From positions 1 to 64,000 of the forward strand of contig NZ_JAGFVL010000063.1 in NCBI RefSeq assembly GCF_017599345.1: a DNA stretch of 64,000 nt. The letters are read 5' to 3'. Position numbers and translations under genes: made by a program. This document shows, piece by piece, positions 321 through 53,341 of the stretch. Position 1 is the stretch's first letter, and every line of letters begins with the position of its first letter. Below the pieces are notes generated by a model. The model was not told where the DNA came from, did no database searches, and was given only the letters and a program-made list of their open reading frames with translations. This DNA is from Gracilibacillus suaedae (GTDB lineage Bacteria; Bacillota; Bacilli; Bacillales; Amphibacillaceae).

Positions 321-1192
321 AGTTTCTATTCATTGAAGACAATCGCTCGGTGTTTTCAGTGGAGAAGATGTGTAAAGTATTAGAGGTGTCTACGAGCGGT
401 TATTTCAAATGGAGAAAGCATAAGCCGAGTCCACAAGAAATACGTAGGGAAGCCATAAAGAAACGAATTAAATACCATTATTACGATGCTGACAGTATAT
501 ATGGTAGTCCCAAAATCACAAAGCTATTAGTCCAAGAAGGATATCAAGTAACAGAAAGAACCGTTAGTGTGTACATGAAAGAACTAAACTTACGATCTTG
601 TGTATCTAAGCCATATAAAGTATCTACAACGCATTCAAATCATGATGATCCTGTAGCACCTAATAGGTTAAATCAACACTTTACAGCACCAGAACCAAAC
701 AAGATATGGGTAGCTGATATCACCTATATCCCTTGTCGACAAGGGCGCTTATATTTAGCTGCGATTCTGGACTTATATACTCGTGAAATAGTTGGTTGGC
801 GCTTAGATGGACATATGGAAACGTCATTAGTTCTTCAAGCACTAGAAGATGCTTATACGTTAAGAAACCCAGAAAAAGGCTTGCTTCACCACTCCGACCG
901 TGGTACACAATACGCTTCTACGGAGTACCGGGACAAACTGAAAGAATTTGGTATGGAGGCAAGCATGAGTCGTACAGGAAATTGTTATGATAATGCTTGT
1001 GCAGAATCGTTCTTCAGCCTAATCAAAAAAGAATTAATGAGAGGTCAACGATTTCAAACGAAGGAGCAAGCTTACGCGGAGATTTATCGTTATATAGAGC
1101 TTTTCTATAATCGAAAAAGAATACATGGATCCATTGGTTTTATATCTCCGGTAGCGTTCAAGCAAAAATACGATAGGCAGCATGCGGCATAA
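317..1192 (+). CDS. IS3-family transposase OrfB (DDE integrase)
   Basis: The 291-residue protein has the IS3 OrfB organisation: an N-terminal helix-turn-helix region and an integrase core (about residues 125-285). The DDE triad is visible: the Asp in WVADITY, the Asp in HHSDRGTQY and the Glu in NACAESFFSLIKKE, with the spacing typical of DD(35)E. The family's C-terminal HGSIGFISP-like motif is also present. The protein catalyses strand transfer when fused to OrfA by frameshifting. The frame is intact, with no internal stop. Confidence 0.92.
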   Translation: MKFLFIEDNRSVFSVEKMCKVLEVSTSGYFKWRKHKPSPQEIRREAIKKRIKYHYYDADSIYGSPKITKLLVQEGYQVTERTVSVYMKELNLRSCVSKPYKVSTTHSNHDDPVAPNRLNQHFTAPEPNKIWVADITYIPCRQGRLYLAAILDLYTREIVGWRLDGHMETSLVLQALEDAYTLRNPEKGLLHHSDRGTQYASTEYRDKLKEFGMEASMSRTGNCYDNACAESFFSLIKKELMRGQRFQTKEQAYAEIYRYIELFYNRKRIHGSIGFISPVAFKQKYDRQHAA

Positions 1193-1444
1193 AAGAAAGA
1201 GCACTTATCGAAGCAGTAAGTTGCCTTTTCATCACTTAGCGACTAGCCAGATGATTCCGTGGAGGGGTCAAGTGGTTTGGGCTTGATGCCTCCGCGGTAT
1301 CATCTATCATTTGAAAAGTGAAGAAAAGGCTACGGTAATCTGACATGTATTCGTTATTTAGGTGTCCACTTTCTTGACAGAAGTCCATCCGTTCCGTTAT
1401 TTTAGTAAAAAGCGTTCAATAGAAGCATAATTTCGGTGAATAAA

Positions 1445-1511
1445 GGAATAGATGTCCGTTACAAGCCTTGAATTCCCCTTTTTTATGCTATTTAACGGAA
1501 CAAATGTCCGC
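1445..1511. repeat. Intergenic repeat with paired GGAAyrrATGTCCG motifs, copy 1
   Basis: GGAATAGATGTCCG (1445-1458) and TAACGGAACAAATGTCCGC (1493-1511) are spaced by about 48 bases. The same two motifs in the same order and nearly the same spacing recur at 4082-4147, while the sequence between them differs. A further GTTCCGTTATTTTAG at 1390 is an inverted piece of the same motif. The element lies between the IS right end and the nuclease-like gene. Its function is unknown. Confidence 0.6.
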
Positions 1512-1526
1512 AAGAAATTCATAGAC

Positions 1527-2171
1527 TTACTTTAGTTGATAAGTCCGTATTCTTTCTTTGCCACTTGCTATTTTTAGAATCTGGGAATCAACCATTTTGT
1601 GCAAAAGGCGTCTTGCATGGCGATCACTTATATGAAGATGTTGTGCTATTTCTTGAGGTGTAAAGGGGCGTAATACACGTTGAGCATATCGGATAATTTC
1701 TGATTCGACCCAAGTTAAAGAAGAAGGGGTTTCAATTGAAATGAATTTTCCTATGAAAGAAAGGATAAGCTGTTGACATTTTCTAGGTTCATCTTTGATG
1801 GATAAATAAGCAATAGGGAGGAATATCCAACCATCTAGAGCTAATAAAGAATGACGCCAACATAAATCTTTAAATCTTCTGACATCTAGGTCTCTAGCAT
1901 GGGGCCCGTATCCTTGAATTTCGATTCCTCCCTTAGCTCCACCTGGCATATAGGCGAGATCTAGATAGCGATATCCATTATTGAAATCTCGAACTTCCCA
2001 TTCTGGATATAAATCATCAAAATTACCTACAGTGGGATACCAAATACAGCGGAGAAATTCAACAGTTCCATGTCCCAATCCTTTCTTCAATATTTCTCGT
2101 CTCCTGTGATTTTTTTCTTCAGCGATATTCTTGTGTATCCATTCTTCGATAGCTTGATTAAATGGTTGCAT
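1527..2171 (-). CDS. PD-(D/E)XK-like / winged-helix two-domain protein
   Basis: No gene name is recognised. The 214-residue protein seems to join two parts. Residues about 30-135 resemble the Vsr/DUF559-type nuclease fold, with E38, D71 (YLDLAY), E84-x-Q86 (GIEIQG) and H91. This is the spacing of the D...ExK catalytic set, but with Gln in place of Lys. Residues about 150-205 form a winged helix-turn-helix (FTPQEIAQHLHISDRHARRLL). Similar Bacillaceae proteins are usually just called transcriptional regulators, as far as I recall. It could be a DNA-binding regulator using a dead nuclease fold or an active nuclease. It is transcribed away from ytoI and sits next to the IS. Confidence 0.6.
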   Translation of the reverse strand: MQPFNQAIEEWIHKNIAEEKNHRRREILKKGLGHGTVEFLRCIWYPTVGNFDDLYPEWEVRDFNNGYRYLDLAYMPGGAKGGIEIQGYGPHARDLDVRRFKDLCWRHSLLALDGWIFLPIAYLSIKDEPRKCQQLILSFIGKFISIETPSSLTWVESEIIRYAQRVLRPFTPQEIAQHLHISDRHARRLLHKMVDSQILKIASGKERIRTYQLK

Positions 2172-2551
2172 GTAAACACATCCTTTTCAAAATAAACATG
2201 GGTTTTTAATAATAAGTGTGGGTAGTAGTAGAGAGTAGGGGAACAAAAACTATTAGATATTTGTATAGTACCTTAAGTATGCTTAATAAGCAATAAGAAG
2301 TTTACGTAAGGCAGTGCAACAACCAACAATCGCAAAAGTCAACAAACTTATATTCTGTTAATCTAAGAAAAACACATCATTTGTTAATTAATACAGATAA
2401 TTAACAAAAGATAAAACAGTACAAATTGATTATTTAATAAACGTAAGAAATGCATAATATTTCAAGAATAAATTGAATATTACAACGAACAACTGTATAA
2501 TTATAGTAGAGGAAAATATACTAGTACAGATGAAAGAATGGTGAAAAGCGA
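2172..2551. other. Divergent intergenic region upstream of ytoI
   Basis: This gap of about 380 bases separates the divergent nuclease-like gene and ytoI. It is very AT-rich and has no plausible gene. Apart from the ytoI promoter candidate, the only notable item is TAGTACCTTAAGT near 2267, which recurs exactly near 3977 in the gap after ytoI. Confidence 0.5.
2473..2501 (+). promoter_or_regulatory. Sigma-A-type promoter candidate for ytoI
   Basis: TTGAAT (2473-2478) and TATAAT (2496-2501) are separated by 17 bases, close to consensus and about 50 bases upstream of the ytoI start. Confidence 0.6.
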
Positions 2552-3865
2552 TTGGCTACAAAACATGAACAAATTCTATCCTTTATTGAATCCTTAAAAG
2601 TAGGAAATAAAATATCTGTAAGGCAAATTGCTAAAGAGCTAAATGTAAGTGAAGGAACAGCTTATCGTGCCATAAAAGAAGCAGAAAACAAGGGGCTGGT
2701 TAGTACCATTGAGCGCGTAGGAACCATTCGAATCGAACGCAAACAAAAAGAAAACTTTGAAAATCTAACCTTTGCCGAAATTGTAAGTATCGTAGATGGA
2801 CAAGTACTTGGAGGAAGAGACGGCTTATACAAAACATTAAACAAGTTTGTTATCGGTGCGATGAAGCTTGATGCAATGATGCGCTATACGGAAAAGGATT
2901 CTCTTTTGATAGTTGGTAATCGTACAGAAGCCCATCAATTAGCATTAAAAGAGGGTGCGGCTGTACTTATTACTGGTGGATTTGATACGGATGATATAAC
3001 CAAGCAATTAGCAGATCAGAAACAGTTACCAATTATATCAACTAGTTATGATACATTTACAGTAGCTGCGATGATTAACCGAGCTATATATGACCAGCTA
3101 ATAAAGAAAGAGATTGTTCTGGTCGGTGATATTTATACCTCGGTAGAAGATACATATTTCTTAATGACAAAAGATCAAGTTGCCAAATGGTATGAATGGG
3201 AAGAAAAAACAACACACAGCCGGTATCCTGTAGTGGATGAAAAAAATAAAGTAGTTGGGATTGTTACATCAAAAGATGTAATTGGACGAAAGATGGATAT
3301 GTTAATCGAAAAGGTGATGACCAAAAATCCGTTAACCGTGATGAAAGAAACCTCGCTGGCATATGCGGCACATATGATGGTGTGGGAAGGTATAGAAATC
3401 ATGCCTGTTGTGGATCATCATCATCAATTGGAGGGGCTTATTTCTCGTCAAGATGTGTTGAAAGCACTTCAGCACATTCAAAAACAGCCACAAGTTGGTG
3501 AAACAATTGATGACATCGTTTCAAACTATTTTGATCATTCACCTACAGACCCACAACATTCTACTTACCATGCCGAGATCACTCCGCAAATGACGAATCA
3601 GTTAGGAACGTTATCATATGGAGTATTTGTTTCCTTTGTTATTGAAGCCGCGCGTAGATTGTTGCGGCATCAGAAGAAAGGTGACTTGGTTGTAGAGAAT
3701 ATAACGGTATATTTCATAAAACCTGTTCAATTAGAAACGACGGTTACCTTTCAACCAAAAATTATCGATGTTGGCAGAAAGTCGGCAAAAGTAGATATCG
3801 AGGTATATCATGAGAAAAAAGTAGTCGGAAAAGCGATGCTGATGGCACAGTTAATTGATCGTTAA
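2552..3865 (+). CDS. ytoI: YtoI: HTH-DRTGG-CBS-hotdog protein
   Basis: The 437-residue protein has four visible parts: an N-terminal helix-turn-helix (VRQIAKELNVSEGTAYRAIKEA, about residues 22-45), a DRTGG domain (about 70-180), a CBS pair (about 190-310; VVGIVTSKDV and LEGLISRQDV mark each half) and a C-terminal hotdog/PaaI-thioesterase-like domain (about 325-437). CBS pairs usually bind adenine nucleotides. This architecture is the conserved Bacillus YtoI, whose function is unknown. The frame opens at TTG (2552), about 7 bases after GGTGA. Conserved synteny with ytpI and nrnA supports the call. Confidence 0.88.
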   Translation: MATKHEQILSFIESLKVGNKISVRQIAKELNVSEGTAYRAIKEAENKGLVSTIERVGTIRIERKQKENFENLTFAEIVSIVDGQVLGGRDGLYKTLNKFVIGAMKLDAMMRYTEKDSLLIVGNRTEAHQLALKEGAAVLITGGFDTDDITKQLADQKQLPIISTSYDTFTVAAMINRAIYDQLIKKEIVLVGDIYTSVEDTYFLMTKDQVAKWYEWEEKTTHSRYPVVDEKNKVVGIVTSKDVIGRKMDMLIEKVMTKNPLTVMKETSLAYAAHMMVWEGIEIMPVVDHHHQLEGLISRQDVLKALQHIQKQPQVGETIDDIVSNYFDHSPTDPQHSTYHAEITPQMTNQLGTLSYGVFVSFVIEAARRLLRHQKKGDLVVENITVYFIKPVQLETTVTFQPKIIDVGRKSAKVDIEVYHEKKVVGKAMLMAQLIDR

Positions 3866-43526: not shown

Positions 43527-43614
43527 AGTACTATAAAAAATTTAAACCGTGATATAGAAACAGAAATCGATCAATTATATCCATAATTACAAACAGGCTA
43601 AGGTTGTGAAGCAA

Positions 43615-43866
43615 ATGTTAATATATTTAGCAATTATTAATATCATATCGTTATTTACTATGTGGATAGACAAAAGGAAAGCAAGAAAGAATAAATGGCG
43701 TATACCGGAAGGACGAATTTGGTTCTTTGCTATTATTGGTGGAGCACTGGGAGCGACTATCGGGATGTATGTATGTCGACATAAAACGAAACATCCATTA
43801 TTTCTAATCGGTTTACCTTTTATTGCGATTATTCAATGGATATGGATCATCATCTTTTTCATGTAA
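43615..43866 (+). CDS. ysdA: YsdA-like DUF1294 membrane protein
   Basis: The small membrane protein has about 83 residues. MLIYLAIINIISLFTMWIDK is the first helix, followed by the DUF1294 signature KRKARKNKWRIPEG and GGALGATIGMYVCRHKTKH, then a C-terminal hydrophobic segment. The function is unknown. The frame also opens at GTG 43606, but AAGG at 43600 is too close to it; the ATG at 43615 is preferred, not proven. In B. subtilis ysdA is followed by ysdB; here about 7 kb of other genes intervene. Confidence 0.82.
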   Translation: MLIYLAIINIISLFTMWIDKRKARKNKWRIPEGRIWFFAIIGGALGATIGMYVCRHKTKHPLFLIGLPFIAIIQWIWIIIFFM

Positions 43867-43921
43867 TGGCTGTCATAAAGGCTCGTCTCTTGTCATATAG
43901 TTTTGTAGAAGGAGCTGATGA

Positions 43922-44500
43922 ATGATGCCAATTGAAATGCTTAGCCAAATAAAAGTAATGGAAAGCTATGCATTTGTAGCCCCTGTGCTTTTTATTATGG
44001 TTCATATCCTTCGCCCACTATTTTTTATTCCAGTCTTGCTGCTGTGTATTACCGGTGGGCTTGTGTTTGGCTTGTTAGCTGGCACGATATATTCCATTAT
44101 TGGTTTAATGATTTCGAGTATTATCTTTTACCTGATCATTCATTTGTTGCCTGCCATTGAAAAACGCTGTAAACGGTTGGAAGAAAAGTTGTTAGGTAAT
44201 GAACTATCGTTAAATACCATTCAAATTATGTTATTAAGAATGCTGCCATTTATCCACTTCCACCTTATGTCCTTCTGCATATATAAAAAATCCGTAAGTT
44301 TTTCCTCTTATTTAAGGACAACATTTTTAACGGTTATACCTGTAGCTTGTTTTTATACTACTTTAGGTAAAACGATCCAAGAAATATCCATCTATTATGC
44401 GATTCCACTTGTAGTAATGGTATTAATTCTTGCCTATTTAGTCAGAAGAAAACAGGTAATTATTAAATGGCAAACCTTTTTTCAGCAAAATACAGCATAA
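43922..44500 (+). CDS. VTT-domain (TVP38/TMEM64, DedA-like) membrane protein
   Basis: The 192-residue protein has about five hydrophobic segments. It carries the VTT-type features RPLFFIPVLLLCITGGLVFG and LGLL-like GTIYSIIGLMISSIIFYLI (as region 55-75), then the LLRMLPFIHFHLMSF and SSYLRTTFLTVIPV motifs. Related proteins are membrane scramblase-like or undecaprenyl-phosphate recycling proteins; the role of this one is unknown. GAAGGAG lies 6 bases before ATG 43922. It is the first gene of the accessory block between ysdA and ysdB. Confidence 0.75.
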   Translation: MMPIEMLSQIKVMESYAFVAPVLFIMVHILRPLFFIPVLLLCITGGLVFGLLAGTIYSIIGLMISSIIFYLIIHLLPAIEKRCKRLEEKLLGNELSLNTIQIMLLRMLPFIHFHLMSFCIYKKSVSFSSYLRTTFLTVIPVACFYTTLGKTIQEISIYYAIPLVVMVLILAYLVRRKQVIIKWQTFFQQNTA

Positions 44501-45180
44501 GAATACATAGGTGCAATTTGTCTGTAAATCAAAAAATAAATGAGGCTAACACTTGATAAGTTTAGTAGATCACTGATGGAAGATTCATCTAATAGAGAAA
44601 GCATCAATAAAGGAGTCCATGCTAGATCAACGGTTAGTGTGGATCCTTAATTTTTATCAAGATGTAAACGTCTGTACTCCTTCCACTTTAAAAATCTGGC
44701 ATAAGCAAAGAAGCTAAGTGGGGGAATAAACAAATGCTAACTTCCTGCTATTCCGCTATTGCTTGATCTACACTGGTTTGTTAGAGGCAGGATATTGATT
44801 TTGTATCTATTATTTGTGATATTAAATGATAAATTGCCTTCTCCATGGTAGAGTAATGCAAATGGAATTATCATATTATCACCATCTAAGGATTTGAAAG
44901 ATCATACGAATGATGTAACACAGGGGGCAAGGGATTATTTCCTTGCCTCTACTAGGTGATGCTCAAAAGTCCAATAAAAAAGGTGCACTGAGTTCCACAT
45001 TGGCGATATGATAGGACGTAATCGTTACATTGTAGCAAAAAAATATCGATGGGACGAGCAATTGCTGTCCCAGAACGTTGCAAATTTAACCGAGTTGATC
45101 CTTTTTATCGAACTTTTGGTACGACCACTATATAATGTTAATTTAACTATCTCAGAAAAATTTTAAGAAATGTCAATAAA
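44501..45180. other. 680-base region without a supported gene
   Basis: No frame of useful length has family resemblance. Two hairpins are visible: GGCAAGG/CCTTGCC (about 44927-44948) without a T run, and GGGAC.AGC/GCT.GTCCC (about 45051-45071). A 32-codon frame at about 44621 has AAAGGAG before its ATG but no recognisable product. A TATAAT at 45131-45136 may be a -10 for the PTS operon, but no good -35 accompanies it. The region may hold decayed genes. Confidence 0.4.
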
Positions 45181-45200
45181 TTGACCGTTGCAACGGTCAA
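45181..45200. promoter_or_regulatory. Perfect 20-bp palindrome upstream of the PTS operon
   Basis: TTGACCGTTG is followed directly by its complement CAACGGTCAA, a 10+10 perfect inverted repeat with no spacer. It lies 61 bases before the regulator gene. Size and symmetry suggest a dimeric repressor or activator site, most simply for the regulator it precedes. Confidence 0.55.
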
Positions 45201-45260
45201 AGACTAGTGAAACGTTTTCTATAAATTGAGTTATTATAAAAAGTAGGAAGGAGGGGGGCT

Positions 45261-46754
45261 GTGAGTTCAAAAGATAATCGTGAACAAAAGCTATTACTGT
45301 TTCTTTCAAAAAATCAAGATTACGTAAAATCAGAGAATTTAACAGAAATATTAAATGTTTCTCAAAAAACAGTATATCGTCTTATTAAAAAAATAAATGA
45401 TGATCATGAAGGAGGTTCATTAATTCTATCTGAAAAAGGGAGAGGGTATAAACTAGATTACGAAAAATTCATTAATTATCAAAAAATCAATAAGAAGTAC
45501 AAAGAGAATCAGTTTTCTCCTTCAGAGAGACGTAAACGAATTATGGAAGAATTATTATTGTATTCACCTAAACCTATCAATATATATCGCTTATTTAACA
45601 AATATTATGTAGGTGATTCAGTTATCTTTAATGATGAACAAGTAATGAGTGAAGAACTGAAAAAGTACAATTTAACTTTAGAACGAAAAAACAAAACGCT
45701 AGCAATACTAGGGGAAGAGTTTAATATTAGGAAGGCTATAAAGGACATTATTGAGATATTTAATATTATTGATATTGATGATTTAAAGAATAATAAAGAA
45801 CTTAATTTCAATAAGTACGACGTTTTGTTTATATTGGATCAATTAAGAAATATTGAGGAATATTTAGCTATTACCATTCCCTATCCATATAATGTAAACA
45901 TTTTCTCACACTTGTATATATTACTAAGTCGTTCAAGAAAAATTCCTGCTTGCAACTTTACTGATGAAATGGCTAAAGATGGAATAAAAAATATGGAAAA
46001 TGATCCCGTTTTGTATGGGGTTGCAAAAGTCATAGTCAATAATATTAAAAAATATCTAAACAGTGATTTACCAGATATTGAGATTTATTTTCTTTATCAA
46101 TACTTAGTTTCATCAAGGATGCAAGGATCTTTTGTACAAACAACCACTCTTTCATCCGAAGTTATTCAAGTGACGAAAGTATATATTGAAGAAATGAGTA
46201 TTAAATTAGGGATTGATATAGAAAAACAGTCTATATTTATTGATTTAGCCAACCATATTAAACCAATGCTTAATAGGTTAGAACATAAAATTCGAATTAG
46301 AAACAACTTATTAAGCGAAATTAAGACAACCTATGAAGAGATATTCGTGGATGTAACGAACGTATCTAAATTTGTAAGTGAAAAATTCAGCTTACCGACG
46401 ATTAATGACGATGAAAACGGTTTTATAACTCTGTATTTTGCTAAAATTATTGAAACGAGCCAATATCAACGGCCTATCAAAACACTTATCATGTGTACTA
46501 CTGGAATTGGAACCTCAGACCTTTTAAAAGTAAAAGTATCAAAAAAATTTCCTGAATTAGAGATCGTTGATGTAATGGCAACTCGTAATATGCAAATGAT
46601 TAAAGAGAAACACGCCGATGTTGAATTGATCTTAAGTACAGTTCATATGGAGGCTGAAGTGCCTATTCATTATTTATTGGTAAGTGCGTTATTTACAATG
46701 GAGGATCAAAAGAGACTTCAAAAAAAGATAGAGGAGATTTACCTTGAACGATAA
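45261..46754 (+). CDS. PRD-type PTS transcriptional regulator (HTH-PRD-EIIB)
   Basis: The 497-residue regulator has an N-terminal DeoR/Mga-like helix-turn-helix (about 15-60; ENLTEILNVSQKTVYRLIKK), PRD-like helical regions (about 190-395) and a C-terminal EIIB-like domain with a phospho-acceptor Cys in LIMCTTGIGTSDLL (about 410-420). Such proteins sense PTS phosphorylation and activate sugar operons. Homologues usually also carry a C-terminal EIIA domain, which here is a separate overlapping gene. The start is GTG 45261 after AGGAGG. It heads the PTS operon. Confidence 0.85.
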   Translation: MSSKDNREQKLLLFLSKNQDYVKSENLTEILNVSQKTVYRLIKKINDDHEGGSLILSEKGRGYKLDYEKFINYQKINKKYKENQFSPSERRKRIMEELLLYSPKPINIYRLFNKYYVGDSVIFNDEQVMSEELKKYNLTLERKNKTLAILGEEFNIRKAIKDIIEIFNIIDIDDLKNNKELNFNKYDVLFILDQLRNIEEYLAITIPYPYNVNIFSHLYILLSRSRKIPACNFTDEMAKDGIKNMENDPVLYGVAKVIVNNIKKYLNSDLPDIEIYFLYQYLVSSRMQGSFVQTTTLSSEVIQVTKVYIEEMSIKLGIDIEKQSIFIDLANHIKPMLNRLEHKIRIRNNLLSEIKTTYEEIFVDVTNVSKFVSEKFSLPTINDDENGFITLYFAKIIETSQYQRPIKTLIMCTTGIGTSDLLKVKVSKKFPELEIVDVMATRNMQMIKEKHADVELILSTVHMEAEVPIHYLLVSALFTMEDQKRLQKKIEEIYLER

Positions 46755-47181
46755 TTCATTCTATCAAGTTTACTTTAATTGTGAGTTAGAAACAAAGAAA
46801 GAAGTACACAATTTTATTTCTAACATTGTATGCCAAAATAACATTTCTATCAAAGAGGAAGTTGTCAATCAACTTATTAGAAGAGAAAAAGCAGGTAGTA
46901 CATTAATAGCTGAACACGTAATGTTACCTCATATCGAAAGCGATCATGTAAAGAATAGTCAAATTATATTCATTCGCTTAGCTAAGCCAATATTGACTTG
47001 GGATGATCATATAGAAGATATTCGCTTATTAATTGTTCTTTTATTGAAGAGAAGCGAAAGTGAGCATATAAAGAAAAAAATATCCCTATTTACTAGGACA
47101 TTAGCAGATGAAGAGTATTTAAACCGATTATTGAATAGTAAGGAAAAATATAATTTTGAACAAGAAATTATAAGAATATAA
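46744..47181 (+). CDS. PTS EIIA-like protein (mannitol/fructose type), split from regulator
   Basis: The 145-residue EIIA type-2 domain has the active-site His in VMLPHIESDHV and a conserved GSTLIAEHV stretch upstream. The gene starts at TTG 46744, preceded by GAGGAGAT, and overlaps the regulator's stop by 11 bases. This is the position the EIIA domain would take in a fused regulator. I infer that it acts with the PRD regulator as a phosphorylation-dependent partner rather than as the transport EIIA, since a second EIIA follows. Confidence 0.75.
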   Translation: MNDNSFYQVYFNCELETKKEVHNFISNIVCQNNISIKEEVVNQLIRREKAGSTLIAEHVMLPHIESDHVKNSQIIFIRLAKPILTWDDHIEDIRLLIVLLLKRSESEHIKKKISLFTRTLADEEYLNRLLNSKEKYNFEQEIIRI

Positions 47182-47273
47182 GAGTTGTTGTAAGTACTGT
47201 TGGAAACGCACACATGTGTATTGCACTAGAAAGGTATCAAATATCACAATTAAAAGCAGGAGGAGAGAAAAAG

Positions 47274-47726
47274 GTGGAAATAGATAATATAGTAGATTTA
47301 GAAACGATCAAAACCAATATGCATGCGAAAAATAAAGATGATGCATTAAAAGAATTAGCAGAATTATTATTACAAAATGAATACATTAGCGATGTTAATG
47401 GTTTCATGACAGACATTTATGCGAGAGAAGCAGAGGGCCAAACTGGTATCGGTAATTATATTGCTATTCCTCATGGAAAAAGTAGTTTTGTGAAAAAAAT
47501 AGGAGTAGCTATAGGGATTAATGAGGATGAAATCCCGTGGGAAACCTTGGATGGAAATGGAGTAAAAGGGGTCATCCTTTTTGCTGTTGGAAATGACAAT
47601 GATGGAGCACAAAATCATTTAAAATTATTATCATTATTTGCGAGAAAATTAGGAAATGATGAAGTAGTTGAAAACTTGTTACAGTCAAAAAATGCTGAAG
47701 ATGTAAAAGAAGCTTTCGGTCAATAA
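47274..47726 (+). CDS. PTS fructose-family EIIA component
   Basis: The 150-residue EIIA-Fru protein is phosphorylated by HPr on the His in GIGNYIAIPHGKS and passes phosphate to EIIB. The helix following (NHLKLLSLFARKL) and overall length fit the family. An upstream ATG at 47214 opens a longer frame, but CAGGAGGAG lies about 8 bases before GTG 47274, giving a natural N-terminus (MEIDNIVDLETI). EIIB and EIIC follow closely, forming a separate-subunit fructose-type PTS. Confidence 0.88.
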   Translation: MEIDNIVDLETIKTNMHAKNKDDALKELAELLLQNEYISDVNGFMTDIYAREAEGQTGIGNYIAIPHGKSSFVKKIGVAIGINEDEIPWETLDGNGVKGVILFAVGNDNDGAQNHLKLLSLFARKLGNDEVVENLLQSKNAEDVKEAFGQ

Positions 47727-47742
47727 AAAGGAGGAAATATTT

Positions 47743-48078
47743 ATGAATATAGTAGGAGTTGCTGCTTGTACTGTCGGAATCGCACACACATATATTGCTC
47801 AAGAAAAATTAGAAAATGCCGCAAAAAAAGCAGGTCATGAAATTGCCATAGAAACACAAGGAACAATAGGAACAGAAAATGAGTTAACTGCAGAACAGAT
47901 TGCTGAAGCTCATGTTGTTATTCTAGCAATCGATGTTAAAATCTCAAATCGAGAACGTTTTGAAGGAAAGCGGATTATTGAAGTTCCCACTGAAGTTGCT
48001 GTGAAATCACCGAATAAACTGATTGAAAAAGTAGAGAAAATTGTTGAACAGAGTTATCAAGAGAGGGAAAGCAAATGA
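47743..48078 (+). CDS. PTS fructose-family EIIB component
   Basis: The 111-residue EIIB-Fru protein has the phospho-Cys at residue 9 in VAACTVGIAHTYIAQEKLE, and GHEIAIETQG follows as usual. It takes phosphate from EIIA and phosphorylates the sugar carried by EIIC. A strong AAAGGAGGAAA precedes the ATG. Its stop overlaps the EIIC start by four bases (ATGA). Confidence 0.92.
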   Translation: MNIVGVAACTVGIAHTYIAQEKLENAAKKAGHEIAIETQGTIGTENELTAEQIAEAHVVILAIDVKISNRERFEGKRIIEVPTEVAVKSPNKLIEKVEKIVEQSYQERESK

Positions 48079-49175
48079 AAAAAATCAAAGAATTGAATCT
48101 TAAAGGTCATTTACTGACTGCGATTTCCTATTTGATTCCAATTGTGTGTGGAGCGGGTTTTTTAATAGCAATTGGGATGGGCTTTGGAGGTACTAGTCAA
48201 GATCAATTAATACAAGGTGAATTTTCCTTTTGGGATGCTTTAGCAACAATGGGGGGAGCGGGTTTAGGTTTACTACCCGTAGTCATTGCTACAGGTATCT
48301 CTTACTCCATCGCAGGAAAACCCGGGATAGCTCCAGGTTTTATCATTGGTCTAACAGCTAATGCAATTGGTGCTGGATTCATCGGTGGAATTTTAGGAGG
48401 ATTCTTATCGGGGTATCTTGCGGTTGCCATTTTGAAATATTTGAAAGTTCCTAAGTGGGCTAAAGGATTAATGCCAACTTTAATCATACCTTTTTTAACA
48501 TCCATCATTGGTGGGGTAATTATGGTTTACATTATTGGTTCGCCAATTGCTGCTTTTACTTCGTTATTAACCAATGCATTAAACAGCTTAGGCTCTTCTT
48601 CATTATTAGTATTTGGTGGAGTGGTAGGTTTATTGAGTGGAGTTGATTTCGGTGGTCCAATTAATAAAACTGTGTTTGCCTTTGTTTTGACCATGCAAGC
48701 AGAAGGTATTAATGGACCAATTACAGCATTACAATTAGTCAATACAGCAACACCAATTGGCTTTGGATTAGCTTATTTTATAGCAAAATTGTTTAGAAAA
48801 AATATTTATACAACATTAGAAACGGAAACATTGAAATCAGCAGTTCCAATGGGTGTTATTAATATTGTTGAAGGTGTCATTCCAATTGTGATGAATGATA
48901 TTATTCGCTGTGTGATTGCAACAGCTGTAGGTGGTGCGGCAGGTGGTGCTGTATCGATGTTGTTAGGAGCAGATGCAACCGTACCATTTGGTGGAGTATT
49001 GATGTTACCAACTATGACGAATCCGTGGACAGGAGTTGTAGCACTACTAGTAAATATTCTTGTAACGGGATTGACCTTGGCTTTAATTAAGAAAAATAAG
49101 ACTCAAGAGGAAATGTCGACGCAAACAGAAACTGAGGAAGACGATATTGATTTAGATGATATTAAAGTCTATTAA
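48075..49175 (+). CDS. PTS fructose-family EIIC permease
   Basis: The 366-residue integral membrane permease has about nine to ten hydrophobic segments and the fructose EIIC features: LTAISYLIPIVCGAGFLIAI at the start, KPGIAPGFIIG, GGVVGLLSGVDFGGPINKTVFAF (as region 185-210) and an acidic C-terminal tail. It starts inside the EIIB stop. It transports and phosphorylates a hexose or ketohexose; the epimerase downstream points to allulose or a related ketose rather than plain fructose. Confidence 0.9.
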   Translation: MKKIKELNLKGHLLTAISYLIPIVCGAGFLIAIGMGFGGTSQDQLIQGEFSFWDALATMGGAGLGLLPVVIATGISYSIAGKPGIAPGFIIGLTANAIGAGFIGGILGGFLSGYLAVAILKYLKVPKWAKGLMPTLIIPFLTSIIGGVIMVYIIGSPIAAFTSLLTNALNSLGSSSLLVFGGVVGLLSGVDFGGPINKTVFAFVLTMQAEGINGPITALQLVNTATPIGFGLAYFIAKLFRKNIYTTLETETLKSAVPMGVINIVEGVIPIVMNDIIRCVIATAVGGAAGGAVSMLLGADATVPFGGVLMLPTMTNPWTGVVALLVNILVTGLTLALIKKNKTQEEMSTQTETEEDDIDLDDIKVY

Positions 49176-49401
49176 TTATAAATATGAGTGTATTTAACTG
49201 AATTTTTTGTTGCAGTAAAAATTGAAGATATTGAAAGATAACAAACTTAAATAAAATTAAAAATTCTGATTAAGTTTAATAGTCGCCTATATTGCTATTG
49301 GGTTAGCTCTATCTTGTTTCGTTTCGGGGCCATTAGCAGTAAAAAATCAAATTGCATAGAAAATTGTTAAATATAATGAATAAAAGGAGAATAAATAGAA
49401 T

Positions 49402-50091
49402 ATGAGAAAAGTAGAATTTTCACCTTCACTGATGACAATGGATTTAGATAAATTTAAGGAACAAATTACTTTTTTAAACAGTCATGTAGATTCTTATCAT
49501 ATTGATATTATGGACGGGCATTATGTTCCAAATATAACCTTATCTCCTTGGTTTATCGAAGAAGTACGAAAAATAAGTGATTTACCTTTATCTGGTCATC
49601 TTATGGTAACTGATCCTAGCTTCTGGGTTCAACAATTAATTGATGTGAAGTGCGATTGGATTTGTATGCATGCAGAAGTACTTGATGGTTTGGCTTTTCG
49701 ATTGATTGATCAGATACATGATGCGGGATTAAAAGCAGGAGTAGTATTAAATCCTGAAACCTCAATTGAAGCGATTTTTCCTTATATTGAATTAGTAGAT
49801 AAAATTACGATTATGACAATTGATCCAGGCTTTGCCGGACAACGATTTATTGAAAGTACACTAGATAAAATTGTAGTTTTAAGAGAATTACGAGAAGAAA
49901 AGGGTTATCACTACGTCATTGAGATGGATGGATCTTCCAATCGAAAAACATTTAAGAGAATTGATGCAGCAGGTCCTGATATTTATATCGTTGGTCGAAG
50001 CGGATTATTTGGGTTAGATGAAGATATCAAAAAATCGTGGGAAATCATGAGTAATGATTACGAAGAAATGACTGGAAAAGTAATATTATAA
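49402..50091 (+). CDS. alsE: D-allulose-6-phosphate 3-epimerase-like protein
   Basis: The TIM-barrel enzyme of the ribulose-phosphate-3-epimerase family has 229 residues. Sequence detail follows E. coli AlsE more than Rpe: FSPSLMTMDLDKFKEQI, SYHIDIMDGHYVPNITLSP, HLMVTDP, LNPETSIEAI, KITIMTIDPGFAGQRFIE and IEMDGSSN. Metal ligands are the His and Asp of HIDIMD, the later His in GHLMV and Asp in MDGS. It would convert allulose-6-phosphate to fructose-6-phosphate. It lies in the PTS operon after a 226-base gap. A chromosomal Rpe elsewhere would support this special role. Confidence 0.8.
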   Translation: MRKVEFSPSLMTMDLDKFKEQITFLNSHVDSYHIDIMDGHYVPNITLSPWFIEEVRKISDLPLSGHLMVTDPSFWVQQLIDVKCDWICMHAEVLDGLAFRLIDQIHDAGLKAGVVLNPETSIEAIFPYIELVDKITIMTIDPGFAGQRFIESTLDKIVVLRELREEKGYHYVIEMDGSSNRKTFKRIDAAGPDIYIVGRSGLFGLDEDIKKSWEIMSNDYEEMTGKVIL

Positions 50092-50166
50092 AAATGAAAT
50101 CATGGTGGTACAAGAACAATAAAAATTTGGTAGCAAATACCTTAGTATATGGAGGTAATGATATAA

Positions 50167-50877
50167 ATGCGAATTGATTCAACGTCTTCAGCAATTTTTT
50201 TCGATTTAGATGATACGTTATATGATTTAATGGCACCATTTGCAAGCGCACTGCAAAAAGAACTGCCTCATATATCACAAACACTGGGCAATGAAATTGA
50301 TTCATTCTTTTCAGCCACTCGACAATATATTGATGGTTTGTGGAAAGAATATCTTAAAGGAGAAAAAACACTTCAAGAAATTAGAATCGAGAGATACCAG
50401 CTTGCTGCCAGGGACTTTAACTTAATAATATCAACGGATGAAGGCAAGCGACTGCAAGAACAATATGAGGCAGAACAAGCTAAAATTTCACTCCCACCTG
50501 ATGTTGAAGCTCTTTTGCGTGAATTGAATGACAAGGACGTGTGCATTGGAATAATTACTAATGGAACAACTGAAGGGCAGACGAACAAAATAAAGACGTT
50601 GGAGTTAGATCAATATTTCTCCGATAACCATATTTTTATATCCAATGAAATAGGTCTCGCTAAACCGCAACCTGAAATTTTCCATTTTGTACATGAGCGC
50701 TGTCAACTAGAGAATTATAGGTGCTATTATATAGGCGACTCATGGAATCTAGATGTGGAAGGTGCTCTTCATACTAATTGGTATCCGATATGGTTCAACC
50801 ACCGCCATCGAGATCCACAACGTCATACAGAAGGTTACTTAGAAATTACTAATCTTAGGCAATTAGATATTGTTTAA
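50167..50877 (+). CDS. HAD-family hydrolase (YjjG-like phosphatase)
   Basis: The 236-residue HAD phosphatase shows motif [12 protein letters not shown], motif II ITNGTTEGQ, motif III Lys in GLAKPQPEIF and motif IV GDSWNLDVEGA. An alpha-helical C1 cap lies about residues 20-100. It likely dephosphorylates a sugar phosphate or nucleotide. Its place as last gene of the PTS operon suggests detoxification of a phosphosugar made by the pathway, an inference. GGAGGTAATG lies before ATG 50167. Confidence 0.85.
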   Translation: MRIDSTSSAIFFDLDDTLYDLMAPFASALQKELPHISQTLGNEIDSFFSATRQYIDGLWKEYLKGEKTLQEIRIERYQLAARDFNLIISTDEGKRLQEQYEAEQAKISLPPDVEALLRELNDKDVCIGIITNGTTEGQTNKIKTLELDQYFSDNHIFISNEIGLAKPQPEIFHFVHERCQLENYRCYYIGDSWNLDVEGALHTNWYPIWFNHRHRDPQRHTEGYLEITNLRQLDIV

Positions 50878-50960
50878 CATGGTACTATTTGTATCTTGAA
50901 TCCTGTTTAATATTCCAGTTGTTATGCTAGTTGTTTAAATGGATTAGTATTCGCTACCTT

Positions 50961-50999
50961 AATAAACGGGGTTTTAAAAATTAAAAATCCCGTTTATTT
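50961..50999 (+). terminator. Terminator of the PTS operon
   Basis: AATAAACGGG with GTTTT pairs with AAAAATCCCGTTTATT, giving a long stem (one bulge) followed by T residues. Confidence 0.75.
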
Positions 51000-51024
51000 C
51001 TTGTCAAAGAAAGTATAAACAGAC

Positions 51025-51150
51025 AGATGTATAGCTCCAAGCGCCATAAACTTGGCGAATTCCCTAAGCGTGCTACGATAAGTCATAATCGGTTCGCTTT
51101 TTTCAGTGATTCCTTTATCTCAGTTGCTACAGTCCAGACACTACGTTTTA
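51025..51150 (+). repeat. Dispersed repeat family C, copy 2
   Basis: The same element as 16355-16470, here more complete (CTCCAAGCGCC ... CTTGGCGAATTCCCTAAGCGTGC ... CAGTTGCTACAGTC). CCAAG/CTTGG forms a small hairpin. It lies between the PTS terminator and ysdB. Confidence 0.6.
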
Positions 51151-51240
51151 AGAGGGCACTTTGCGCTTTTCATATCTTAGAGGGGTTATAGTTTCTCAAT
51201 TTCGCTTTTCATGCTACCTAATGCTTTGAGACCAACCTTG

Positions 51241-51627
51241 TTATGATTTAAAATGTAGTTTGTTAATAGGATATTTCCAATCAATGTTAGCGTGAGGATA
51301 TCGAATCAGTATCTCTTCCTCTAAGAAATAGAGATCCTTGCGCTCAAATCCTTTCAATTTCTCTGGATTTCTCGTGTGCATCACGATGTTAATCACTTCA
51401 AAGGCATCTTCTGTTGTGCCTAAATACTTTTCCCCTTCAAATAAAAAGCCTTTGTACGTAATAAAAAAGTTTTTCTTAATATTATCATTGTAATCAAGAA
51501 AATAGAATTCATTTTTTTCCTGCGCAACTTCCAGTTTCCTCTTTGGATTAACGATATATTTATAGGCAGTATATATTAATACAATCATAGCAATTACTAC
51601 TAAAAAACGAAAAAGAATAACGATCAC
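51241..51627 (-). CDS. ysdB: YsdB, sigma-W pathway membrane protein
   Basis: The 128-residue protein has a single N-terminal membrane segment (IVILFRFLVVIAMIVLIYTA) and a cytoplasmic domain with IVNPKRKLE, FFITYKGFLFEGEKYLG and the C-terminal IRYPHANIDWKYP, closely like B. subtilis YsdB. That protein is linked to the sigma-W response; its exact role is unclear. AGGAG is 9 bases before GTG 51627 and 3 before ATG 51633; GTG is preferred. A sigma-W-like promoter lies upstream. Confidence 0.85.
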   Translation of the reverse strand: MIVILFRFLVVIAMIVLIYTAYKYIVNPKRKLEVAQEKNEFYFLDYNDNIKKNFFITYKGFLFEGEKYLGTTEDAFEVINIVMHTRNPEKLKGFERKDLYFLEEEILIRYPHANIDWKYPINKLHFKS

Positions 51628-51666
51628 GAACATCAACTCCTAAAATACAAGACTTCTAAATAGGCT

Positions 51667-51693
51667 TACGAATTTATCGATGCTTTGGTTTCA
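51667..51693 (-). promoter_or_regulatory. Sigma-W-like promoter of ysdB
   Basis: On the minus strand TGAAAC (51688-51693) and CGTA (51667-51670) are 17 bases apart, about 40 bases upstream of ysdB. This agrees with sigma-W control of ysdB in B. subtilis. A divergent TGC-TATAAT extended -10 (51714-51719) for the dUTPase gene lies just beyond. Confidence 0.6.
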
Positions 51694-51754
51694 AAAAAAT
51701 AAACCAAACATGCTATAATATGAGAATAAATCCAAAAACTAGAGGGAGAACTAT

Positions 51755-52240
51755 ATGAATTGGCAAACACTTTTTGATATGCAGCGAGAATTAGATAACT
51801 ATATTTTAGCACAACATGATTTGAAAAACGAAAATGTTTTTGATAAAAAGGTATTAGCGCTCTTGGTAGAAGTTGGCGAATTAGCAAATGAAACAAGGTG
51901 CTTCAAGTATTGGAGTGTAAAGCCAGCTAGTGAGAAGGCTGTTATCGCCGAGGAATATGTGGATGGCATTCACTTCATCTTATCATTAGGATTGGAATTA
52001 GGAGTAGATCAATATGAGTCAAGTAATCAAGCTAGTGATGAAGATTTGACATCCTTGTTTCATCACGTTTTCCGTTCCATTTCTGTGTTAAAGGGAGAAC
52101 AGTCGGTTGAAGCGTATAGAGCTGTCTTTGATACATATTTAATTTTAGGCGAAAAATTAGGCTTTTCTGCAAATGATATAAAAAAAGCTTATGTGGATAA
52201 AAATAAAATTAACTTTGAAAGACAAAATCAAGGTTATTAA
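51755..52240 (+). CDS. dUTP diphosphatase (all-alpha, MazG-like type)
   Basis: The 161-residue all-alpha dUTPase hydrolyses dUTP to dUMP, limiting uracil in DNA. The metal-binding helices are visible as LLVEVGELANETRCFKYW (ExxE) and EEYVDGIHFILSLGLELG (ExxD). It belongs to the dimeric dUTPase/MazG superfamily, not the trimeric beta type. AGAGGGAGAA precedes the ATG. ysdC follows after 18 bases. Confidence 0.87.
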   Translation: MNWQTLFDMQRELDNYILAQHDLKNENVFDKKVLALLVEVGELANETRCFKYWSVKPASEKAVIAEEYVDGIHFILSLGLELGVDQYESSNQASDEDLTSLFHHVFRSISVLKGEQSVEAYRAVFDTYLILGEKLGFSANDIKKAYVDKNKINFERQNQGY

Positions 52241-52258
52241 TTTCTAGGAGGAAATTTT

Positions 52259-53341
52259 ATGTCAAACTATGAGCAATTAACGATGTTAAAAGAACTAACA
52301 GATGCACGGGCTATTCCAGGAGATGAAAGAGAAGCACGTGAAGTCATGAAGAAATGGATTTCACCATATGCTGATAAAGTCTATACCGATCATCTTGGAA
52401 GTTTAATCGCCGAAAAGAATGGGGACGAAAACGGTCCAAAAATAATGGTAGCTGGCCATTTGGATGAAGTTGGTTTTATGGTAACACGGATTGATGATAA
52501 AGGTTTTGTCTATTTTCAAACAGTTGGTGGCTGGTGGAGTCAAGTGATGCTGGCTCAACGTGTCACTATTCTAACTAAAAGTGGAGATGTTACAGGGGTA
52601 ATTGGTTCAAAACCTCCTCATATCCTTTCAGCGGAAGCTCGCAAGAAACCAGTGGATATTAAAGATATGTTTATTGACATTGGTGCATCAAGTAAAGAAG
52701 AAGCAGCTGAATTTGGTGTTAAACCTGGCGATTCTGTTGTTCCATACTTCGAATTTACTCCATTGAAAAACGAAAAATTATTACTTGCCAAAGCATGGGA
52801 CAATCGTATTGGTTGTGCAATTGCGATCGAAGTATTACGAAGATTAAAAGGAGAAGATCACCCTAACCGTGTTTATAGTGTTGCAACCGTACAGGAAGAA
52901 GTCGGATTACGAGGCGCAAAAACCTCTGCATATACAATTGAACCTGACATTGGTTTTGCAGTTGATGTTGGTATTGCAGGAGATACACCAGGCGTTTCAG
53001 ATAAAGACGCAGATAGTAAAATAGGTGATGGCCCGCAAATAATTCTGTACGATGCCTCTATGGTATCTCATAAAGGATTAAGAGATTTTGTTGTTGAGAC
53101 AGCAGATCAGCAGCAAATTCCATATCAATATGGCCATTTGGCTGGTGGAGGAACTGATTCTGGTTCGATTCACTTAACTGCAAATGGGGTACCGGCTTTA
53201 TCGATAACCATTGCTACAAGATATATACACACACATGCTGCAATTTTGCATCAAAATGATTTCGAAAATGCTGTACAATTAATTGTCGAAGTTATTAAAA
53301 ATTTAGATCAAGATACGGTAGATAATATTACTTTTTCTTAA
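52259..53341 (+). CDS. ysdC: M42-family metallopeptidase YsdC
   Basis: The 360-residue di-metal aminopeptidase (glutamyl aminopeptidase/deblocking type) shows the metal ligands in [35 protein letters not shown] and the C-terminal THAAILH, with the PDZ-like insertion between. It trims N-terminal residues from peptides in the cytoplasm; M42 enzymes form large tetrahedral assemblies. TAGGAGGAAA precedes the ATG. It is followed by a strong terminator. Confidence 0.93.

Follow-up and report, generated by a model that had tools for sequence, protein, structure and literature searches.

A fructose-family phosphotransferase operon with an AlsE-type epimerase in Gracilibacillus suaedae: probably a horizontally moving system for a ketose, most likely D-allulose

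Which sugar enters a cell through a phosphotransferase system (PTS) of the fructose family when the gene behind its membrane subunit encodes an epimerase of the AlsE type? The question is raised by an operon of Gracilibacillus suaedae, analysed here within a 64,000-nucleotide stretch (the window; contig NZ_JAGFVL010000063.1, positions 1 to 64,000 of the forward strand). Seven open reading frames (ORFs) on the + strand at 45261-50877 stand in the order PRD regulator, EIIA1, EIIA2, EIIB, EIIC, AlsE and HAD phosphatase, with intergenic gaps of -11, 32, 16, -4, 226 and 75 bases, and their families are backed by Pfam and NCBIfam profile searches. The ORF table and these family assignments bear out the gene list and same-strand order of a first-pass annotation that had proposed an allulose-type PTS operon in an accessory block. 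The reading favoured here, which we consider probable, is a horizontally moving ketose PTS operon with D-allulose as its most likely sugar.

The epimerase (49402-50091, + strand) carries much of the argument. It is assigned to AlsE, the D-allulose-6-phosphate 3-epimerase, and not to Rpe, because it passes the AlsE model NF007266 (378.6 bits against a cutoff of 271), misses the rpe equivalog TIGR01163 (189 against 212.6 bits), has a longer phosphate loop than Rpe and shares its genome with another rpe candidate. The latter, a PF00834 match on contig C32, scores 281.9 bits with that Pfam model, compared with 183 for the window epimerase. The loop, which follows the last strand, reads VGRSGLF in the window, VGTSGLF in Escherichia coli AlsE and AGSA-IF in the genome's own Rpe, making the window AlsE loop one residue longer than that of the own Rpe. 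Chan and colleagues are said to have shown in 2008 that the extra residue makes room for hexulose 6-phosphate. The best match of the epimerase in the PDB is likewise a D-allulose-6-phosphate 3-epimerase, 3ct7. The preference of the first-pass annotation for AlsE over Rpe thus holds: the enzyme does not group with Rpe, and the separate rpe gene that the annotation had thought worth seeking is present on C32.

The linkage between this epimerase and the PTS is widely conserved among Gram-positive bacteria. A scan of one genome per species across 84,980 species, made with the AlsE query alone and reaching close relatives only, returned 69 loci, with hosts among the Bacillaceae, Enterococcaceae, Carnobacteriaceae, Streptococcaceae, Staphylococcaceae and Bifidobacteriaceae (including Bifidobacterium). 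Where 5 kb or more of upstream sequence is available (63 loci), EIIC was assigned in 61, EIIB in 62, EIIA2 in 62, EIIA1 in 58 and the PRD regulator in 61; four upstream misses (L055, L060, L062 and L067) are artefacts of ORF choice, the genes being listed in separate ORF tables. The epimerases of this clade are marked by one loop residue, the R of VGRSGLF. Of 70 rows (the window plus the 69 loci; L068 ends before the loop), 67 have Arg there and 2 have Lys, and three further PTS-linked AlsE proteins have Arg as well. Elsewhere the position holds Thr (E. coli AlsE), Ser (all five AlsEs linked to ATP-binding cassette, or ABC, importers) or Asn (beside an EIIC-GAT-type PTS).

Comparison with other AlsE loci shows what the PTS stands in for. 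In evenly drawn samples, 12 of 398 Bacilli genomes and 4 of 398 Bacillota genomes have an AlsE above the model cutoff. The distinct AlsE genomes number 14 with the window counted: eight have this PTS, five an ABC importer (its parts labelled by eye) with an AlsK-like kinase, and one an ascorbate-type (EIIC-GAT) PTS. The kinase is found in all five ABC-type loci and RpiB in three of them. In contrast, AlsK probes gave only two weak matches (22-28%) in the 69 PTS-type loci, both away from the operon, and RpiB occurs there as a single 5'-truncated remnant; this kinase search covered the AlsK type, and PfkB-type kinases were noted by eye in a neighbouring cluster of L065 and L069. In the inserted block of the window, neither an ABC importer, nor an AlsK kinase, nor an RpiB/AlsI isomerase was found. 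Because the ABC/AlsK loci carry AlsE too, the PTS appears to take the place of importer plus kinase around the same epimerase, and because the operon loci have neither an intact RpiB nor, in the operon, a kinase of the AlsK type, a ketose is a more likely substrate than allose or another aldose. One locus (L165:5432-10972, genome G014) pairs AlsE with a PTS in a different way: the neighbours there are an ascorbate-type EIIC of the EIIC-GAT family, a PRD regulator and, by eye, a regulator of LacI-like type, and the AlsE has Asn at the loop position.

In the proposed pathway, EIIA2, EIIB and EIIC would bring the ketose into the cell with a phosphate added at the terminal carbon, C6. AlsE would then invert C3 of the ketose phosphate to yield fructose-6-phosphate, and the housekeeping PfkA would pass this product into glycolysis. 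A pfkA gene over its model cutoff is present on the same contig at 13455-14345. The route from PTS through allulose-6-phosphate and fructose-6-phosphate to pfkA, as first proposed, is coherent with the lack of AlsK and of an intact RpiB and with the pfkA on the contig; the sugar at its head is a probable assignment.

Known AlsE systems take other routes to the same step. The alsRBACEK-rpiB operon of E. coli K-12 has the same AlsE family and the same expected product, but it combines them with an ABC importer, AlsK, RpiB and the repressor AlsR, whereas the Gracilibacillus operon has a PTS and a PRD regulator and is without kinase or isomerase. A 2025 study in Commun. Biol. is said to show AlsE-based use in Clostridium innocuum. 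The psicose (that is, allulose) locus of Klebsiella pneumoniae also includes an allulose-6-phosphate 3-epimerase gene, with a permease and a ribokinase-annotated kinase in place of a PTS; without the permease, growth on psicose is not normal (PMC6020474). AlsE-based use of allulose or allose is described for E. coli, Klebsiella and Listeria and, on the word of a citation and a review sentence, for a limited set of bacteria (Commun. Biol. 2025). No description of a fructose-type PTS/AlsE operon was found in the open literature searched, subscription papers being mostly outside its scope.

The transport subunits belong to the fructose family, and EIIC forms a clade of its own. EIIA2 (47214-47726, + strand) is a fructose-type transport IIA protein (TIGR00848, 130.5 bits against 103.5) that probably starts at GTG 47274, judging by the start position in relatives and an AGGAGG seen by eye upstream. 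EIIB (47743-48078, + strand) is also fructose-type (TIGR00829, 102.3 bits against 76.85), and the membrane subunit EIIC (48075-49175, + strand) passes the fructose-family model TIGR01427 (201.5 bits against 157.55). The EIIA2 His is kept in 70 of 70 aligned sequences, and the EIIB Cys in 76 of 77, the remaining one having a gap. EIIC had no Pfam match at E 0.001 and falls short of both the FrwC equivalog NF007787 (216.5 against 426 bits) and the FruA equivalog PRK10712 (209.1 against 793 bits). It had no match to PDB sequences at E 0.01 either, so no structure-based inference is drawn.

In a 25-row tree, 15 rows stand for the AlsE-PTS clade and were picked from the window and the 69 loci. The EIICs of AlsE loci form one fully supported clade in it, while the outer branch order is unsure. 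Members of the clade share 24-36% identity with E. coli FruA, FrwC, MngA and FryC, and with the three other fructose-family proteins encoded in the window genome. Among NCBIfam equivalogs, EIIB and EIIC score highest with models that we take to be of the FrwB and FrwC types. Both proteins miss these cutoffs (EIIC as above; EIIB 114.3 against 135 bits), and although a fructose-6-phosphate aldolase gene, fsaB, lies near E. coli frwC, no alsE is present within the 14 kb examined. An own-genome protein called ManP-like by eye, an IIBCA beside a full-length PRD regulator, is 34% identical to the window EIIC and lies outside its tree position. In Enterococcus avium (G443, L172:660-6267), a paralogous PRD-EIIA-EIIB-EIIC operon has an EIIC of 45% identity, the nearest sister in the comparison, followed by two class II aldolases instead of AlsE.

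Fructose-type systems often phosphorylate C1, and the first-pass annotation had singled out the resulting mismatch with AlsE as the notable point of the locus. The point is weak. Vibrio cholerae ManP is a fructose-family EII that transports mannose, its operon includes mannose-6-phosphate isomerase, and its regulator responds to mannose-6-phosphate and less to fructose-1-phosphate (PMC9392796). Given this precedent, a 6-phosphate from a fructose-family EII is not anomalous, and the window genome has a separate FruA-FruK system. The same source describes a man operon with the PRD-containing ManR in Bacillus subtilis; the ManP systems differ in their mannose substrate and, in V. cholerae, in an AraC-type regulator (PMC9392796). 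We infer that the PTS phosphorylates the imported ketose at C6.

Several points weigh against D-allulose. The Arg/Lys loop differs from that of E. coli AlsE and may tune or alter specificity, and the aldolases beside the E. avium sister EIIC would agree with phosphorylation at C1 by that sister. Moreover, of the 66 loci with room downstream of AlsE, 25 have a transketolase (Tkt) gene that begins no more than 3.2 kb away. Fructose-6-phosphate can feed Tkt but does not require it, so the recurrence of Tkt, which the first-pass annotation had no means of seeing, is the main evidence against a plain hexulose. A representative Tkt passes the transketolase model TIGR00232 (947.3 against 682.25 bits), and a second transketolase exists in all 17 operon-Tkt genomes checked, though one genome has it only in fragments that lie at the ends of contigs. 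A quick Tkt tree with approximate likelihood-ratio (SH-aLRT) support only covered 24 of 25 operon Tkts (the split copy of L044 was left out) and 19 of 20 others (L226 has no long ORF). On it the operon label changes 10 times, 9 of them forced by starred branches, compared with a mean of 14.3 changes when labels are shuffled (10 of 500 shuffles as low as 10). The operon Tkts are thus partly of shared descent, but they joined from more than one origin, and a single origin finds no support in the tree. Two Bacillaceae groups, of six and five loci, each share one operon Tkt.

A second neighbour, a TalC/FSA-family gene, occurs in 10 of the 66 loci. Its early label by eye, transaldolase, was replaced when a representative passed the fructose-6-phosphate aldolase/TalC model TIGR00875 (264.2 against 245.95 bits), a result that raises the allulose reading and lowers one based on shorter or longer ketoses. 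Its residues look transaldolase-like by eye, and the gene is ambiguous between a fructose-6-phosphate aldolase, which would suit allulose, and a transaldolase. Tkt or TalC/FSA is present in 27 loci and neither in 39, and the window operon has neither.

These neighbours bear on the strongest competing explanation, in which the PTS would deliver a five- or seven-carbon (C5/C7) ketose, such as D-ribulose or a heptulose, as its terminal phosphate. An epimerase shifted off allulose-6-phosphate, as its Arg/Lys loop might allow, would then form xylulose-5-phosphate or sedoheptulose-7-phosphate for transketolase and transaldolase, and so feed the non-oxidative pentose phosphate pathway; different lineages would have added their own Tkt and sometimes TalC to such a ketopentose or ketoheptose PTS. 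We consider this rather unlikely, while taking it seriously. Besides the counts of Tkt and TalC/FSA genes, it draws on the repeated joining of Tkt (10 label changes, at least 9 forced) in genomes that, in the 17 checked, have another, on the transaldolase-type residues, and on the loop Arg/Lys, which could reach the phosphate of a shorter substrate. A single locus also holds AlsE, an rpiB remnant, tkt and a TalC/FSA gene together. At this locus (L010:6028-6330) the 5'-truncated remnant lies between AlsE and the other two genes, an arrangement that looks like the fusion of a pentose-type segment to the operon's downstream end. Set against these points are the AlsE-length loop and AlsE model score, the pass of the aldolase model, and the partial clustering of operon Tkts on the tree, by which the joins are not all independent. 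The 39 loci that, like the window, have neither gene indicate in addition that the epimerase product alone should suffice. We know of no characterised fructose-family PTS for a ketopentose or ketoheptose.

D-Allose, the substrate of E. coli als and of the Listeria allose operon, is a highly unlikely substrate here. AlsE is common to allose operons, as seen in the E. coli annotation and in PMC5893763, and at lmo0734-0739 of Listeria monocytogenes a PTS gene lies beside an AlsE-type gene (PMC5893763, PMC5491136). This D-allose operon differs by a beta-glucoside-annotated PTS, a LacI regulator and an AlsI-type gene, and Listeria strains that lack the PTS gene could grow on allose too, only more slowly (PMC5893763). 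Allose-6-phosphate needs an isomerase to reach AlsE, and RpiB was not found in 68 of the 69 related loci, some of which are incomplete; a housekeeping isomerase could, in principle, serve instead.

A plain fructose or mannitol PTS with an incidental epimerase is very improbable, even though EIIA2, EIIB and EIIC all pass fructose-family domain cutoffs. The window genome already has a fructose-family IIABC with 1-phosphofructokinase (TIGR03828, 341.5 against 292 bits) and a DeoR regulator, plus two further fructose-family systems, and for this reason the operon is unlikely to be the genome's fructose PTS. In addition, no FruK was found among the ORFs of the inserted block, EIIC falls in its own clade, and the linkage to AlsE is kept across several families. 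A 1-phosphofructokinase of the genome adjoins another PTS system, on contig C59. On contig C21 (L186:1383-6028) a 1-phosphofructokinase, an IIBC and an IIA are accompanied by an RpiR-like regulator and a class II aldolase-like gene, both labelled by eye. Finally, a housekeeping Rpe lodged in a sugar operon is practically out of the question: it shares PF00834 with the window enzyme, which also passes the broader rpe subfamily model NF004076 (184.7 against 165 bits), but the stronger PF00834 match lies on C32, and the rpe equivalog is missed where the AlsE equivalog is passed.

The D-allulose reading also includes movement between genomes, and the accessory block foreseen by the first-pass annotation is confirmed by empty sites in related genomes. 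The insertion spans 44497-51242. On one side it is flanked by a VTT-domain gene, on the other by a small minus-strand ORF, after which comes the dUTPase gene. Aligned by blastn with the empty site of a same-genus genome (G399), the closest one, window positions 43541-44496 and 51243-53341 correspond to empty-site positions 29-984 and 989-3088, which places the ends at about 44497 and about 51242, to within a few bases. VTT lies within about 0.6 kb of dUTPase, the empty configuration, in 12 of 12 other same-genus genomes searched, a set that includes G. timonensis and not G. orientalis. G. orientalis carries the block at the same site as the window, and G. timonensis carries the operon and HAD gene at another position with its VTT/dUTPase site empty. 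The G+C content of the block is 33.1%, compared with 36.4 and 37.2% in its flanks. The two 160-base insertion ends share no 9-base word, direct or inverted, and no terminal repeat appears among the listed repeats (20 of 23 direct families). No mobile-element gene was seen among the proteins profile-searched, in which no search was aimed at such genes.

Within the genus, the HAD gene travels with this insertion. It encodes a HAD-IA phosphatase (50167-50877, + strand) whose nearest model is YjjG_YfnB; the YjjG-type nucleotidase model TIGR02254 is not passed (121.3 against 159.9 bits). Of 17 genus genomes, the window counted, three have an AlsE match at E 1e-90 or better, and HAD copies at least 74% identical occur in the same three, the remaining HAD matches being at most 40% identical; this co-occurrence is the basis for saying that the two travel together. 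As a member of the operon, which the earlier reading took it to be, HAD fits in strand and in being closed by the downstream hairpin, but it is missing from the widely conserved operon of the related loci. In S. thoraltensis, a HAD protein of 35% identity is encoded between the TalC/FSA gene and tkt. HxpB is itself a HAD enzyme. In E. coli, phosphatases such as HxpB together with alsE expression gave higher psicose output (PMC10576766). By this analogy it is plausible that the HAD of the Gracilibacillus version relieves the cell of excess sugar phosphate, which it may dephosphorylate.

Control of the operon probably rests with the PRD regulator (45261-46754, + strand). It consists of HTH_11, an Mga helix-turn-helix (HTH), two PRDs and an IIB-like end, without a IIA domain. 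EIIA1 (46744-47181, + strand; PTS_EIIA_2), which overlaps the regulator gene by 11 bases, most likely supplies that domain as a separate protein. ManR/MtlR-type regulators run HTH, Mga HTH, two PRDs, IIB and IIA, an order carried in one chain by a 642-residue PRD regulator on contig C13 of the same genome. The window regulator aligns with its residues 5-491, and EIIA1 with residues 512-637, its C-terminal IIA domain; the ManR/MtlR-type order is therefore kept across the two proteins, while the single chain is broken, with IIA on the overlapping ORF. Similarity alone does not decide the origin of EIIA1, because it is about equally similar to EIIA2 (29% over 91 residues) and to the C13 IIA domain. 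The gene overlap and a score below the fructose-IIA cutoff (57.9 against 103.5 bits) favour the detached regulator domain, so that the earlier label EIIA stands for the family and gives way as to the role. All 58 aligned EIIA1 sequences have the His presumed to be active, and all 64 aligned regulators have His217, His332 and the IIB-like Cys.

A conserved operator precedes the regulator gene. The perfect 20-bp palindrome TTGACCGTTGCAACGGTCAA at 45181-45200 ends 60 bases upstream of the start codon and is the candidate site at which the PRD regulator probably acts; the first-pass annotation began its stretch at the left edge, 45181, and left the palindrome unnamed. The pattern WTGWCCRTTGCAAYGGWCAW, derived from the same loci as were counted, many of them related, was scanned for between 300 bases upstream and 60 bases downstream of the regulator start in the 65 loci where that start is usable; it occurs with at most three mismatches in 57 of them and in 0 of 1300 single-base shuffles. 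As a conserved element of AlsE-PTS loci, this 20-bp operator is new here. In whole-genome searches of 37 related genomes, chosen from those of the 69 loci, a site with at most two mismatches is present in 36 and is the only one in 28, whereas a reversed control pattern matches in 9. The window genome has one perfect site; a second operator-like site there, with three mismatches, was rejected as a regulon member, as the control matches equally many, and is taken as chance.

More than one site occurs in 8 of the 37 genomes, and four stretches were inspected. Three were likewise taken as chance (labels by eye): one within a GHMP-kinase-like ORF and another 40 bases upstream of an argininosuccinate-lyase-like gene, both in E. 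hermanniensis, and one at the start of an amidase-like ORF in Bacillus sp. B15-48. The second site of E. avium, a similar palindrome, precedes the PRD gene of the paralogous operon described above.

Between the operator and a -10-like element lies a sequence (45207-45220, + strand) with the 12-base core GAARCGYTTTCT, presumably a catabolite-responsive element (cre) for CcpA. Among 58 aligned rows, 53 are long enough for comparison; 35 of these have the core at no more than two mismatches, a count without a shuffled control. The -10-like element itself, TATTAT (45232-45237, + strand), recurs as a loose TANNNT at this distance in 53 of 53 rows, again without a control. An operator upstream of -35 and a cre-like site over -35 suggest an activator combined with CcpA repression. 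In such a scheme, the PRD regulator with its detached IIA domain would sense PTS phosphorylation and activate the operon from the palindrome just upstream of -35, and CcpA would probably repress it through the cre-like site.

At the other end, a terminator-like hairpin (50961-50998, + strand; inverted repeat I6) folds at -16.9 kcal/mol with a z of -5.27, and 0 of 200 shuffles fold as well. It is not among the calls of a simple terminator scan of the window, and it supports the single closing terminator described at first pass. A terminator in the 226-nucleotide gap between EIIC and AlsE (49176-49401) was considered and rejected, since the fold there is no better than that of shuffles (z -0.43). 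In three loci (L025, L034 and L043) a TalC/FSA gene occupies the position of this gap. Gene order within the transporter also varies: EIIA2 precedes EIIB in the window and nine loci, EIIB precedes EIIA2 in 49, eight loci (L025, L034, L036, L042, L043, L046, L065 and L069) carry two EIIB copies in the arrangement EIIB-EIIA2-EIIB, and three loci are unclassed.

Should the presence of transketolase genes point to a ketose of five or seven carbons, the operon would represent a new kind of PTS substrate. If the D-allulose reading is true, the operon, its operator and the loop signature together would mark a way of taking up allulose by PTS, separate from the ABC importer and kinase route of E. coli, and this route would be present in enterococci, streptococci, staphylococci, bifidobacteria and bacilli.

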